The notes under the pieces: model-generated
The model's database searches: none
Told to the model about the DNA's origin: nothing
Seen by the model: only the letters and a program-made list of their open reading frames with translations
Made by a program: the position numbers and the translations under genes
Source of the DNA: a bacterium
GTDB taxonomy: Bacteria; JACRDZ01; JAQUKH01
NCBI GenBank assembly: GCA_028719205.1
Contig: JAQUKH010000006.1
Span: 1-64,000 of the forward strand
Direction: 5' to 3'
DNA length: 64,000 nucleotides
In this document: piece after piece, positions 18,595 to 26,396 of the stretch
Layout of the letters: the number at the start of each line of letters is the position of its first letter
Numbering within the stretch: the first letter of the stretch is position 1

Positions 18595-20136
18595 ATGTTA
18601 TCAATTATTAATAGCTGTGCTGTTTTTGGAATAGAAAGTTATCTGGTCCGGGTTGAGGTGGATATTGCCGGAGGCCTGCCGAGCTATTCTACGGTTGGGT
18701 TGCCGGACGCGGCGGTCAAGGAAAGCAAGGACCGGGTAAAGGCGGCGATAAAGAACTCGGATTTTGAATTCCCGAGCAAAAGGATCACGGTCAACCTCTC
18801 GCCGGCGGATGTGAAAAAAGAGGGGCCTGATTTTGACCTGCCGATTGCTATCGGGATCCTTGTGGCCACGGGCCAGCTAAAATCAGAAAAAATAAAAGAA
18901 TACGCGATCCTCGGAGAACTTTCACTAGACGGCACGGTGCAAAAAATTAACGGTGCTCTGCCTGTCGCTTTGGGAATAAAAAGAGAAGGTTTAAAAGGAA
19001 TAATTTTACCTCATGCCAATTCTGATGAGGCCGGCGTAGTTGAGGGTATTGAAGTTATTCCCGTAAAAGACCTTTTTGAAACTGTTAAATTTCTTGAAGG
19101 CGAAAAAAATATTTCGCCTCACAAGGTTGATCTGAATGAGATATTTGATAACAGCAGAAATTATGAACTGGATTTTTCCGATGTTAAGGGCCAGGAGCAG
19201 GCAAAGAGGGCTTTAGAGGTAGCGGCGGCCGGCGGGCATAATGTTATTATGGTTGGCCCCCCGGGTTCAGGAAAGACCATGCTGGCCCAGCGTTTCCCGA
19301 CGATCCTGCCGGATTTTAGTTTAGATGAGGCTTTGGAAACGACCAAGATTCACAGTGTGGCGGGAATACTGGCCTCCGAAAAAGGGCTGATAGCGGTACG
19401 GCCTTTCCGGTCGCCGCATCATACCATATCAAGTATAGCGCTGACAGGCGGCGGACAGTATCCGAGGCCTGGCGAGGTAAGCCTCGCGCATCACGGGGTG
19501 TTATTTTTGGATGAACTTCCTGAATTTCACCGGAGCGTATTAGAAGTTTTGCGCCAGCCATTAGAGGATGGCGTTGTTACAATTTCCCGCGCGGCGGCTT
19601 CATTGACATATCCCGCGAGGTTTATGCTGACCGCGGCGATGAATCCCTGCCCCTGCGGATATTATGGTGACTCATTCCATGAATGCAGGTGCACGCCAAA
19701 CCAGATCCACAGGTACCGCTCAAAAGTTTCAGGCCCTTTATTGGATAGAATTGATATTCATCTGGATGTTCCCGCGGTGAAATTTAAAGATATATCAAGC
19801 AAAGCTCCTGCTGAGAGTTCAGCGGATATAAAGCTAAGGATAAATAAAGCAAGGAATATCCAGAAAGACCGTTTCAAAAACCACAAGAAAAAGGTTTTCT
19901 GCAACTCCCATATGGGCCATAAAGATATTAAAAAATATTGTGAAATAGATGAGACCTCACTAAACCTTCTCAAAGAAGCCATCCAGAAAATGGGTTTCTC
20001 CGCCCGCGCCTACGACCGCATCCTGAAAGTCTCCCGCACGATCGCGGATCTGGATGGAATAGAGAACATTCGGCAGGATCATATCTTAGAGGCTATTCAA
20101 TATAGGAGTTTGGATAGGGGGGAGAATAAATTTTAG
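18595..20136 (+). CDS. comM: ComM/YifB-family Mg-chelatase-like AAA ATPase
   Basis: [78 protein letters not shown]. Confidence 0.96.
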
Positions 20137-20238
20137 GCTATTGATTTATTCATTAGTTGAATCATTTAGCGGTATAGATTACAATGGTGGCAATGAAATG
20201 AGGAAAAAAGAGAACGAATTGGAAGTAAGGGGGGAAAT

Positions 20239-20853
20239 ATGAAAAAGTCAATAAATTTTGCGGTTTTGATACTGTTTGTTTTTTCATTAGGGGCTAAAAT
20301 AGAAGCAGTGGGAGAAAGTAAAAAGGCAGAGGAAGCCAAAAAATATAGTGCTACACTTTCTCAGGCTTTGATCCAAACAGAAAATTCATCATTTAAACAA
20401 TTTGGCCCCGATGGTAAACCGTATATTCATGGGGATTCAAAATATTGTGGAATAGGAAATATTAGTTTAACACAGAATCCGAATGGTATAGATGTATGGG
20501 TTACTAATGACAAAGGAGAAAAAATTCACATTGTTGCTACAAAAGAAGAAATAGAGAATGATATATATAAAAATATTGAAGGTAGTCTTGCCAAGTTTAA
20601 AGACGCTCTAGAAAATGTGGAATGGACTTATGATCAAAAAAACATAACTATATCAGATGAAGAAAAGGCTGCGATTACGTATAGTGAGTATATTGGAGGA
20701 GCATGCAGCCGATGGAAAATAGATGTACGCCCAGATGAAAGTTATTGGCGTGAAAAAGCTAAAATAGATATAACCAATACCTCAAATACTATATTGGATA
20801 TATTAAATCGTAAATCCAATTACATGAAAAATTATGGAATATTGGATAAATGA
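20239..20853 (+). CDS. Secreted protein of unknown function, cassette gene 1
   Basis: Signal peptide MKKSINFAVLILFVFSLGAKIEA; AGTAAGGGGGG SD-like; no recognised domain. Confidence 0.7.
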   Translation: MKKSINFAVLILFVFSLGAKIEAVGESKKAEEAKKYSATLSQALIQTENSSFKQFGPDGKPYIHGDSKYCGIGNISLTQNPNGIDVWVTNDKGEKIHIVATKEEIENDIYKNIEGSLAKFKDALENVEWTYDQKNITISDEEKAAITYSEYIGGACSRWKIDVRPDESYWREKAKIDITNTSNTILDILNRKSNYMKNYGILDK

Positions 20854-20877
20854 AAATAATTTATTAGGAGAGCAACA

Positions 20878-21957
20878 ATGAAAAATATATTAAGGAATCT
20901 AAAAAAGATTATTAAAAATATTTTTAAAATATTTTCGGGATTAATTCTAATATTATTTTTAGTATCTAATGCAAATGCCCAATTGATTGGGTACACTTTT
21001 AATGATAATGGGAAAATATATGAAATTGATTTCGGATCTTGCAAAATTTTAAGAGAAATGAATGTTGGGAGATCAATGGATGCTGCAAAAATAATCTATG
21101 ATAAAAATAACATTAAAAGTTATATTGTTTTCAATAGTTATGAAATTATAATTGTTAATTTGATAGATTTTAAAATTGAAAAAACAATCAAATCACCGGA
21201 TTTATATAAATTTTCAAGGGCTACTCCTATATTTTTAAATTTAATAAAAAATCAAATATACATTGAAACAAAAAAAATTATAGATGTAAATAAAAAGCAA
21301 GAAGAACATCGACTTCTTTCTTATAACACTAACGATTATTCCTATTCCGAAGTTGATAATAAATTTTTTAGATATTATCAATTTACATCTGACGGAAAAT
21401 ATTTATATCGAATTTGGGACAATAGTGATATTAAAAAAATAGAGAAAAGAAGTACTAGTAATTTCGAATTAATAAATACTTTTCACCTCCCGGAAATTCC
21501 CAAAATTGATGATATTGAAAGTTTCATTTTATCTCCCGATAATAAAAAAATTTATATAAATGGATTTTTAAGGCAGGATTCTTATAAATGCTATGAATTT
21601 GTTTTAGATGCAACAAATGGAAACTTATTAAATTTTTTAACATTTGAGGAACATGTAGCCGCTATTTCTGAAGAAGCTAAGTATTTATATACGACAAAAA
21701 TAGATACTGCAACTTCAAATTTTGTTCTTAAAAAAATAAATACTGATAATTTTTCCCAAGAAGAAATACCTATCGTATCTGACCATATTACTGTTGATAA
21801 CATTTCTATATCGCCCGATGGGTCGGTTTTATTGATAGGCAGCGACAGTGATGTTAAAAATCCTAAAGGATATGTTACAGTAGTAGATCTAAAAGAGAGA
21901 AAAATTAAAGGGCAAATTGAATTAGAGACATTCCCAATTGCAATTTATTTCGAATAA
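20878..21957 (+). CDS. Secreted beta-propeller-like (YVTN-type) protein, cassette gene 2
   Basis: N-terminal hydrophobic segment; repeated SPDNKKIYINGF / SPDGSVLLIGSD blade-like motifs. Confidence 0.65.
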   Translation: MKNILRNLKKIIKNIFKIFSGLILILFLVSNANAQLIGYTFNDNGKIYEIDFGSCKILREMNVGRSMDAAKIIYDKNNIKSYIVFNSYEIIIVNLIDFKIEKTIKSPDLYKFSRATPIFLNLIKNQIYIETKKIIDVNKKQEEHRLLSYNTNDYSYSEVDNKFFRYYQFTSDGKYLYRIWDNSDIKKIEKRSTSNFELINTFHLPEIPKIDDIESFILSPDNKKIYINGFLRQDSYKCYEFVLDATNGNLLNFLTFEEHVAAISEEAKYLYTTKIDTATSNFVLKKINTDNFSQEEIPIVSDHITVDNISISPDGSVLLIGSDSDVKNPKGYVTVVDLKERKIKGQIELETFPIAIYFE

Positions 21958-22102
21958 TGAAATAAAAATAGCCTACTTTTTTGTGAGCCTATCTAGCTTA
22001 AATTGAACCATTTGTTAATAGGGAGCAGTATAAATAAGGACAATTAACCTTCCTCTCAAAACCTTATTGATTAAAAATAATTGCGATTAAAAAGATAAAA
22101 TA

Positions 22103-22287
22103 GATAGAATTGACATTCATTTAGATGTTCCCGCGGTAAAATTTAAGGACATATCAAGTAAAATCCCGGCCGAAAGTTCCGCGGATATAAAGTTAAGGAT
22201 AAATAAAGCAAGGAACGTATTCAGCAGAATCATATTTTAGAAGCTATCCAATATCGGAGTTTAGATAGGGGTGAGAATAAATTTTAA
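22103..22287 (+). pseudogene. Decayed second copy of the comM 3' end
   Basis: 37 codons (95/111 nt identical to 19747-19857) joined by GT to 23 terminal codons homologous to 20068-20136; the 210-nt middle is missing and the frame is broken. Confidence 0.93.
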
Positions 22288-22370: not shown

Positions 22371-22760
22371 CTATGTTTTAAAATTAGAATTTTCCGCGAA
22401 ACGGTCTATGACCTCTTTTACATTATTATCTATTCTTTCAAAAAAAGTGGCTATTCCATAAATCGGATTTTTTTTATATCCAGCATTATATTGCCTGTCT
22501 TCATCTATCCGGCATACCTTACCTAAACAATTAACTGGTTCATTAATAAAAGGCAGTTTAATGTTTAATTCTATTCTTGTATTTACAGGGATTTTTTTAT
22601 TAAAATTAAAACATATCCCGCTTGAGCTCAAATTTTTTATTGTTACCATATGCCACTTGGAAAGATCATCACAGAATGCTATTTCTCCACTAATACGAAA
22701 TCTTACAATAAACAATTTTTGAATTCTCTTAGCTCTTTTAGGTAAAATTAAAGGTTCCAT
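22371..22760 (-). CDS. PilZ-domain protein
   Basis: RFRISGEIAFCDDLSKWHMVTIKNLSSSGICFNFNKKIPVNTRIELNIKLP. Confidence 0.8.
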   Translation of the reverse strand: MEPLILPKRAKRIQKLFIVRFRISGEIAFCDDLSKWHMVTIKNLSSSGICFNFNKKIPVNTRIELNIKLPFINEPVNCLGKVCRIDEDRQYNAGYKKNPIYGIATFFERIDNNVKEVIDRFAENSNFKT

Positions 22761-23033: not shown

Positions 23034-23897
23034 ATGATAAATATCACCAAACATAAGAAGGCTGAGGACGACATAAAGGAGTCCGAAGAGATATTTGAAA
23101 GCGTGGTGGATAATATCGGTATTGGTGTATCGCTCATCAGTCCGGCTATGGAGATATTATCCATGAATAAACAAATGAAAAAATGGTTCCCGGATATTGA
23201 TGTTACCAAAAAGCCGGTTTGCTATCGAGCTTTTAATAAACCACCGAAAAAAATTATCTGCCATTATTGCCCAACCCATAAGACCTTAAAAAACGGACAG
23301 GTTTATGAGTCTATTACTGAAACTCCCGCAGGCGGCAAAATTATTAATTATAGAATAATTTCTTCCGCGATTAAAAATAAAGAAGGGAAGATCATTGCGG
23401 CGATAGAGATGGTGGAAGATATTACTAGGCGCAAGGAAGTAGAAGATGCCCTGAAAAAGTCTAAGGAAGAATTGCGTAAACAAAAATTGGTTTTGGAACA
23501 GAAAAATTTAGCCCTGAAAGAAATGCTGGAGCATATTGAGAGAACAAAAATTGATATGAAAGAAAACATAGCAATTAATGTAAATGAAATATTACTGCCA
23601 ATTTTAAAAAAACTGAAAATAAAAGGAGCATCCTCTAAGTATACTAATTTACTCCAATACCATTTAGAAACCTTAGTTTCTTCTTTTGGTTATAAAATTA
23701 CAGAAAAAAACACTAAATTAACAACCCGGGAAATTGAGATCTGCAACATTTTAAAAGGTGGTCTTACAAGTAAAGATGCCTCTGAACTTTTAAATATTTC
23801 TCGCCAGACAATTGAAAAACACCGCAAAAATATAAGAAAAAAGTTAAACATATCTAATGAAAAGGTTAATTTAATTTCTTTTCTGCAAAGACTCTAG
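23034..23897 (+). CDS. PAS-domain LuxR/NarL-type HTH regulator
   Basis: PAS segment plus C-terminal LTTREIEICNILKGGLTSKDASELLNISRQTIEKHRKNIRKKL. Confidence 0.9.
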   Translation: MINITKHKKAEDDIKESEEIFESVVDNIGIGVSLISPAMEILSMNKQMKKWFPDIDVTKKPVCYRAFNKPPKKIICHYCPTHKTLKNGQVYESITETPAGGKIINYRIISSAIKNKEGKIIAAIEMVEDITRRKEVEDALKKSKEELRKQKLVLEQKNLALKEMLEHIERTKIDMKENIAINVNEILLPILKKLKIKGASSKYTNLLQYHLETLVSSFGYKITEKNTKLTTREIEICNILKGGLTSKDASELLNISRQTIEKHRKNIRKKLNISNEKVNLISFLQRL

Positions 23898-24341: not shown

Positions 24342-26057
24342 TTATTTTAATTTAAATTTTTTTTCGGTAAAAAGCTTCTGGCAAATATCCACAACATCCG
24401 GATCATAGAGGATGCCTTTATTGGAGGCGATCTCTTTTAATGCTTTCTTTATGCTGTAAGAAGCCCTGTAAGGCCGGTGCGAAGCCATAGCTTCAACAAC
24501 ATCAGCTACTGCTATGATCTTGGCTTCCAGCAGGATGTCTTTGCCCTTAATACCGCCCGGATATCCTGAACCGTTTTCTCTTTCATGATGCTGCAGAATA
24601 ATTTGAGCGATAGGCCAGGGGAAATCTATATTTTTTAATATATTGTAACCGGTCTGAGGGTGTGTTTTAATTATGTTAAATTCCATATCAGTTATTTTGC
24701 CGGGTTTAGTGAGAATTTCAGAGGGAACGGATATTTTTCCTAAATCATGAACACTTCCAGCTATACGAATTCCGTCAATCTGTTTTTCAGAAAGACACAT
24801 TTCTTTGGCTATAGAACGAGCAAGATCAGAAACTCTCCTTTGATGTCCGGCTGTATAAGGATCCCTTGTTTCAACAGTTGATACTATGGCTTGAATAGTT
24901 CCATTTATTGCTTCCCGCAGTCTTCCCAGGGTGCTGATAAGTTGTTCCTCGTCCTTTTTACGCACGATAACCCCGGCTAAAGTGTCAGCAATGGCTTGAA
25001 GAAAATTCTCTTCTTTTTGATTCCGGATATGTCCGTGTATTAAGTGCAAATTCAGCACCCCGAGAACTTTATTGTCGTATATTATCGGGACACAATAATG
25101 CCCGTGAGGAGTTATTGCCTTATACATAACGCTATGGCGTTTGTCAATGCAATTTGAAAATTGTATTTTTCGTGTTAACGCGGCCTGGCCACAAAGGCAT
25201 TTACCTAAAGGGACCTGTGAACACGCTTTTAACATTTGGCTCGGGATATTTCTTCCTGCTTTCATTACCAGGATCTCAGTATTATCTTCAATGAGAAATA
25301 TACAGCCCCGGGGGCTGGAGGAAAAGCAGGGAATTGATAATATAATATCAATAGTATGTTCTAAATATTCATTAAAAACCATATTTGTTTGTGAGAGGTG
25401 TAAAAATTTGTTCAGGATGATCTGGTCATCATAGTTTTGCTGGATTTTCGTTTCTACCTGTTTGTATCCGTCATTCTTGATATATTCCCATTTATCTCCC
25501 TCTTTAATAAGAGTAAACTGGTGCCTGCTTACTATTTTTACAATTTCAGATTGATCACATTTATCAAGGGAATACGCGCAAACGGTTTTTATCTGATGCT
25601 CAGAAATTATCTTGTTTACTTCATCTTCATAATCAACAAAGCTTTTCCAATCTTTTCTCGCAAGCCAGGCCGGATTATTTATTAACCTCATTCCATCATA
25701 ACCTTTGAGTAAGGCTTGATTTAATTTGTTGATCCAGATGTTAGAAATCCTTTGAATATTAAAAAGATCATTCTCAATATACCATTTGTCATGGAAGATT
25801 ATTTCTATTTGTCCTTTTTCAAGGTATTTATCGAAATCAGGTACAGCATTTCTTATCGCTTCTTCACCCTCCTTACAAATAACAGGTTCTGAAGTAAACA
25901 AGATACAGAATTCATTATTTTTCAAACCTGTTTTGAAATATGGCACTAAAACGTCAATTAAATCTTTTTTATTCTGATAAAAATGACATAAATGAGTGCC
26001 CCACGGGATATCACTTATAATATTATTTTCTGTTTTTTTTACGGCTGTTTTTTCCAT
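24342..26057 (-). CDS. MEDS-GAF-HD-GYP domain protein (putative c-di-GMP phosphodiesterase)
   Basis: MEDS: PWGTHLCHFYQNKKDLIDVLVPYFKTGLKNNEFCILF; GAF; VHDLGKISVPSEIL...HHERENGSGYPGGIKG. Confidence 0.9.
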   Translation of the reverse strand: MEKTAVKKTENNIISDIPWGTHLCHFYQNKKDLIDVLVPYFKTGLKNNEFCILFTSEPVICKEGEEAIRNAVPDFDKYLEKGQIEIIFHDKWYIENDLFNIQRISNIWINKLNQALLKGYDGMRLINNPAWLARKDWKSFVDYEDEVNKIISEHQIKTVCAYSLDKCDQSEIVKIVSRHQFTLIKEGDKWEYIKNDGYKQVETKIQQNYDDQIILNKFLHLSQTNMVFNEYLEHTIDIILSIPCFSSSPRGCIFLIEDNTEILVMKAGRNIPSQMLKACSQVPLGKCLCGQAALTRKIQFSNCIDKRHSVMYKAITPHGHYCVPIIYDNKVLGVLNLHLIHGHIRNQKEENFLQAIADTLAGVIVRKKDEEQLISTLGRLREAINGTIQAIVSTVETRDPYTAGHQRRVSDLARSIAKEMCLSEKQIDGIRIAGSVHDLGKISVPSEILTKPGKITDMEFNIIKTHPQTGYNILKNIDFPWPIAQIILQHHERENGSGYPGGIKGKDILLEAKIIAVADVVEAMASHRPYRASYSIKKALKEIASNKGILYDPDVVDICQKLFTEKKFKLK

Positions 26058-26396
26058 TTAATTATCTCCAGATTTTCATTTTATTTTCTAAAATTACTCA
26101 CTGAGATTTTTGTTTCTCTCCAGGAAGAGTACTCATTTATTATATATGTCATAAATAATACACGGTTAATCGATTTATACCTTAAATAGGCTTTCCTGCT
26201 TTTATTTATTTACGATATAGAATCTTTGATATATATGTGTAAATAATGTGGTATGGTTATTTTTATCTTTTTTGCCTTTCAAGGCTTTTTTTCTGTTAAA
26301 ATAACTCCTTAAGTATAATTCCGGAAGGTTCGATAATCTTAGATAAGAGGTTTTATCTTTAAAATAATAGAGTGATTTGAGGTAAAGGGGAGTAAA

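Follow-up and report, generated by a model that had tools for sequence, protein, structure and literature searches.

Why should a bacterial gene that is whole also have a second, decayed copy of its own 3′ end, which lies roughly 2 kb away on the far side of two other genes? The question is posed by comM, the product of which helps to integrate transformed DNA, in a 64,000-nucleotide stretch of a draft bacterial genome (contig JAQUKH010000006.1, positions 1 to 64,000; hereafter, the window). There, comM (18595..20136, + strand) encodes a YifB/Mg-chelatase-like AAA+ ATPase and is an uninterrupted 513-codon open reading frame (ORF) with Mg_chelatase, ChlI, and Mg_chelatase_C matches in Pfam (PF01078, PF13541, and PF13335). 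A remnant of its tail follows on the same strand in two pieces. Piece A (22103..22215; 113 nt, 87% identical to 19744-19856) corresponds to codons 384-421, and piece B (22219..22287; 68 nt, 88% identical to 20068-20135) corresponds to codons 492-513 and the TAA stop. The junction between them, C-GT (22216..22218, + strand), read from the sequence as GGAA-C-GT-ATT in its context, stands for ~210 nt of comM. This layout bears out a sequence-only reading of the same DNA, which had described an intact comM and a two-piece second tail with an internal deletion. A short common GAA(C) beside the junction suggests that microhomology may have been involved in the deletion. The two tails are in direct orientation, 2.15-2.36 kb apart, and no third copy is present in the 2.59-Mb assembly. 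The left end of the remnant is abrupt, with only short chance matches. Over the last 66 nt of comM, the remnant scores 57/66, whereas the best opposite-strand score in 167 comM loci is 34/66, which excludes a chance origin.

The DNA between the two tails (20137-22102) falls in the AT-richest stretch of the window, with a G+C content of 27.8% as compared to a 2-kb-window mean of 38.9% (s.d. 3.2), confirming an AT richness that had been remarked on before. This cassette holds two genes, both on the + strand. ORF1 (20239..20853; 204 aa) has a signal-like N-terminus and is an orphan; no relatives were found in the congener G001 or in 395 other genomes, and its AlphaFold model is uninformative (pLDDT 37). 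ORF2 (20878..21957; 359 aa) is predicted with fair confidence (pLDDT 80, pTM 0.77) to be a secreted, signal-bearing β-propeller, the best PDB match of which, 1l0q, is the YVTN propeller of an archaeal surface-layer protein. No relatives of ORF2 were found in the 395 other genomes; two tandem paralogues (49% and 40%) are located elsewhere in the same genome, on G000:C7. The stretch that contains them (L119:3102-6606, 27-30% G+C) also encodes another secreted propeller-like protein. The putative secreted products of ORF1 and ORF2 probably have a surface or secretion role. A phage, plasmid, or viral source of the cargo finds no support, as ORF1 has no matches among phages and plasmids and ORF2 none among plasmids and viral contigs; comparison with PHROGs returned one weak family only, of unknown function. 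A tRNA is also rejected as the attachment site, as the window has no tRNA genes. No ORF for an element-encoded site-specific recombinase is present in 20137-22102, and a motif search of the window downstream of comM detected none. TnsF, YRec, HTH, and GIY-YIG genes were not seen among the cassette ORFs, and no integrase, transposase, or inverted ends were recognized in this cassette or in the other short comM cassettes described below.

The manner in which the two tails differ is informative about their origin. Among 60 comparable codons, 21 differ, and 18 of these 21 differences are synonymous (stop codon included). The silent excess that had been reported thus stands, although the counts given with it, 19 synonymous among 22, do not. 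Over 59 codons, 17 of 20 differences are silent, as compared to ~24% for random change (P = 1.4e-8 against neutrality). When the changes are polarized with G001 as the outgroup, 6 silent and 0 replacement changes are unique to the remnant, and 4 silent changes to the intact copy. This pattern indicates that the remnant is most plausibly a diverged allele, which had been functional as coding sequence until just before it turned into a remnant and decayed. Had the comM end simply been duplicated in tandem, with genes captured between the copies and decay thereafter, their direct orientation and spacing would be accounted for. However, a dead copy should gain amino acid changes, and the remnant has gained none, which makes this route very improbable. 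Because the two tails diverged as coding sequence, incoming DNA is favored over a recent tandem copy, as the sequence-only reading had argued from purifying selection before the remnant died. Measured against G001, the intact tail has diverged no more than the rest of comM and is not visibly foreign; the 3′ part of comM in the window may be either the native or the incoming copy.

Gene order was compared with that of relatives, a sparse sample in which G001 is the only congener. To the right of the remnant, the window contains a PilZ-domain gene (22371..22760, − strand; PF07238, E = 4.4e-10) and then a PAS/LuxR-type regulator (23034..23897, + strand; Pfam GerE and PAS_9), which is syntenic with G001 and marks the ancestral right flank. 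In G001, the comM product of which is 88% identical in amino acid sequence, the LuxR/PAS gene and a CBM48-like gene come immediately after comM, without ORF1 and ORF2. Because the window counterparts of these two genes stand to the right of the remnant, the remnant lies at the position of the native comM end and, on that basis, is likely to be that end. Intergenic DNA of G001 and the window is too diverged to align significantly and gives no sign of which tail is the native one. The same comparison bears on whether the locus is an assembly chimera of two strains, as might be suspected of an assembly in 68 contigs. A join at a strain switch would not give a second tail that is truncated on its left, internally deleted, and then followed by genes syntenic with G001, and we find a chimera hardly credible.

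A cassette-free relative with the same tandem tail would point away from insertion, as the sequence-only reading had recognized. G001 does carry a comM tail copy, 2.7 kb downstream, but it lies elsewhere, beyond the LuxR, CBM48, and glycosyltransferase genes and before esterase-like, YiiX-like, and AbiEi-like antitoxin genes and a neighbor of the latter. It is identical to G001 comM at 61/66 nt, with a 48-nt exact core. Because the copies in G001 and the window are in different places and each is nearest to its own host's comM, they look, from sequence comparison, like independent events, and an ancestral tail common to G001 and the window genome (G000) is ruled out on the same grounds. Between the CBM48 gene and a conserved operon at window position 26359, where synteny picks up again, is a variable stretch (24342-26057 in the window, L118:11562-17370 in G001), which contains an HD-GYP-like gene in the window and the glycosyltransferase, comM tail, esterase, YiiX-like, and AbiEi-like genes in G001. 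Piece B of the window remnant (22219-22287) and the G001 tail copy (L118:12754-12821) begin at codons 492 and 493, respectively. If these near-equal starts are not due to chance, the window remnant could represent two successive events rather than one deleted tail.

The explanation that we consider probable, without holding it strongly, is that incoming DNA brought a comM 3′ end with it, that comM was restored upon insertion, and that the native tail, once displaced, decayed. DNA carrying a comM 3′ end beside the two cargo genes would insert at comM, and recombination would restore a full gene from the host 5′ part and the incoming 3′ part. The native tail would end up beyond the cargo, as happens with e14 at Escherichia coli icd, and, being untranslated, would subsequently lose the ~210 nt. 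A site-specific recombinase, encoded in cis, or in trans and later lost, may target the last comM codons. The element e14, a 15-kb cryptic prophage with site-specific integration, supplies a replacement 3′ gene end, while the displaced 163-bp native end stays on the far side as a pseudogene fragment (PMC6379469). The window likewise contains, in order, a whole target gene, cargo, and a displaced 3′ end in direct orientation, and its two tails differ mainly by silent changes, as would be expected of the replacement and displaced ends of an e14/icd-type element. In contrast to e14, the insert is only ~2 kb long and carries two genes for secreted proteins, with no integrase seen, and the displaced tail is internally deleted.

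To place this locus in a wider context, 80 comM loci of a species-representative collection and 99 comM regions of diverse genomes, unselected for tail copies, were surveyed. The denominator is the 167 comM loci with at least 1.5 kb downstream, with the window and G001 left out, and a tail copy was defined as a direct copy of the last 66 nt, matching at at least 46/66, within 8 kb downstream. Six of the 167 loci have such copies (L056, L068, L184, L185, L195, and L228), as compared to 4 of 1448 other ORFs in the same loci with a copy of their end (odds ratio 13.5, P = 1.7e-4) and 0 of 294 control ORFs with a conserved C-terminus (P = 0.0021). The strictest conservation filter leaves 49 control genes, none with a copy (P = 0.21), a number that gives no power. 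The comM enrichment rests on six events, and many of the contigs are metagenomic or draft. The left ends of six of nine copies fall within comM codons 481-499 (P = 2.5e-7 under uniformly distributed breakpoints); the copies at L068, in the window, and at L228 start at codons 281, 384, and 432, respectively. A silent excess like that in the window is also seen at L068 (72/80 differing codons silent), L184, L185, and L228, and the L056 copy has no silent bias. At L068, the cargo is a secreted LRR protein. The cargo of L184 reads as PQQ-like repeat proteins, and that of L185 as putative GHKL-type ATPase, methylase, and AAA/DUF4276-like genes. Each of these last two loci has two successive tail copies with cargo between them, the pattern that serial insertion at one site would give. 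A tyrosine-recombinase motif scan of 181 loci detected XerC/D-like proteins only, none in a tail-carrying locus. No empty site or intact element was found; G399, a congener of the L184 genome, has another downstream gene order, common to G397, and offers no clean empty site, and the clades around G018, G332, and G183 comprise 3-4 genomes only. Because scars are far commoner at the comM end than at neighboring genes, this end appears to be in wide use as a docking place for foreign DNA. The earlier suggestion that it is an accessory-cargo site is thereby supported and extended well beyond this lineage.

The survey also speaks to a route that needs no recombinase, namely homology-facilitated illegitimate recombination. 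Here, a transformed linear fragment from a related strain would pair with comM at one end and join by chance microhomology inside or beside comM at the other, bringing the donor comM end together with its downstream genes. The short cassettes, in none of which a mobility gene was recognized, and the left end at codon 384 in the window favor homology-assisted entry. The scatter of left ends among the long copies (codons 281, 384, and 432), the ~13% tail divergence, which fits a congeneric donor, and the paralogues of the cargo family in this genome are consistent with it as well. However, this route predicts like scars at any conserved gene, whereas the excess at comM is more than tenfold, and the last 33 codons hold most of the left ends. 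Enrichment and clustering together favor a specific target, and we rate the recombinase-free route as rather unlikely. The starts in the window, L068, and L228 nevertheless mean that one att site cannot explain all copies.

Insertion of foreign DNA at comM has a real precedent in AbaR/Tn6022-type islands, to which the sequence-only reading had pointed, but not of the same kind, as Tn6022 and Tsy target comM at its Walker B region and leave it split (PMC10293859). In the window, as in these elements, comM is targeted and cargo adjoins a comM 3′ fragment; unlike in them, comM is uninterrupted, with a copy that begins at codon 384. Membership in the Tn6022/AbaR group is ruled out because comM is unsplit at Walker B and Tn7-type transposition genes and TnsF are absent from the cassette ORFs, and membership in Tsy is ruled out because no YRec, HTH, or TnsF genes lie between the comM copies. 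It is conceivable that an element of either type broke comM and that homologous comM DNA from outside then replaced the broken 5′ side, leaving a cargo remnant and the old 3′ piece. The proven targeting of comM by Tn6022 and Tsy (PMC10293859), the L068 copy, which starts at codon 281, just upstream of Walker B, and the occurrence of comM genes split at another site are in keeping with such a history. It is improbable, given that the window remnant and most other copies (codons 481-499) start far from Walker B and that the cassette has none of the TnsF, YRec, HTH, or GIY-YIG genes.

Other breaks in comM were observed in the course of this comparison. In several unrelated genomes, comM is interrupted in or next to the codons that specify its NPCPCG motif (~aa 352), a site that differs from the Walker B target of Tn6022/Tsy. 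Such cuts are found at L247:1100-1150 and L248:2020-2070 (both in G037), at the contig starts L241, L242, L243, and L244, at L245:8734-9231, and at L246:5529-6185. The G037 flanks suggest a 6-bp duplication, TGCCCC, with inverted ends CCCACCGT. In G184, a putative SIR2-HerA pair adjoins the comM 3′ half. In two unrelated genomes (L134:452-1398 and L245:8734-9674), a similar XRE-type HTH gene, with the pattern MPYC...KT-GD-L--KRLDL, abuts a displaced comM 3′ fragment, a placement that would suit one end of an integrating element. In G050, ~15 kb with radical-SAM and ABC-transporter genes separates two comM fragments. In G018 (L136:1-400 with L135:6542-6673) and G029 (L137:7181-7280), a contig ends in or just past the comM tail, which also begins another contig. 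A repeated tail would give this pattern, and so would a population mixed for an insertion.

Beyond the window, we tentatively entertain the possibility that, across many bacterial phyla, the last ~30 codons of comM serve as an attachment region at which DNA integrates time after time while the gene is spared. This DNA would lack a recognizable recombinase, accrete serially, and carry surface, defense, and biosynthetic cargo. Two further systems are among the closest known to the window locus. Dehalococcoides ssrA islands lie serially after one gene, parted by 3′-end copies, and some have no integration module (PMC3146451). They differ in using a tmRNA gene, a 20-bp repeat, and a serine recombinase; the comM repeats are longer and protein-coding. 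In Acidithiobacillus ferrooxidans, iMGE6 is listed as a genomic island at comM with direct repeats; by the same listing, it is unlike the window cassette in that it is 95 kb long and has an integrase and RitABC (PMC10322971).

Within the open-access literature, gene-sparing insertion at the comM 3′ end appears new beside the known targeting of comM, and an earlier report may exist. Two unrelated transposon groups are already proven to target comM; they break the gene and may thereby lower transformation. If our reading is correct, a second mode of insertion leaves comM functional, occurs repeatedly in distant phyla, and builds up stacks of cargo, which raises the question of which recombinase recognizes the comM end. 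An orphan comM tail would then be a simple marker for new genomic islands and for defense and surface genes in uncultured bacteria.
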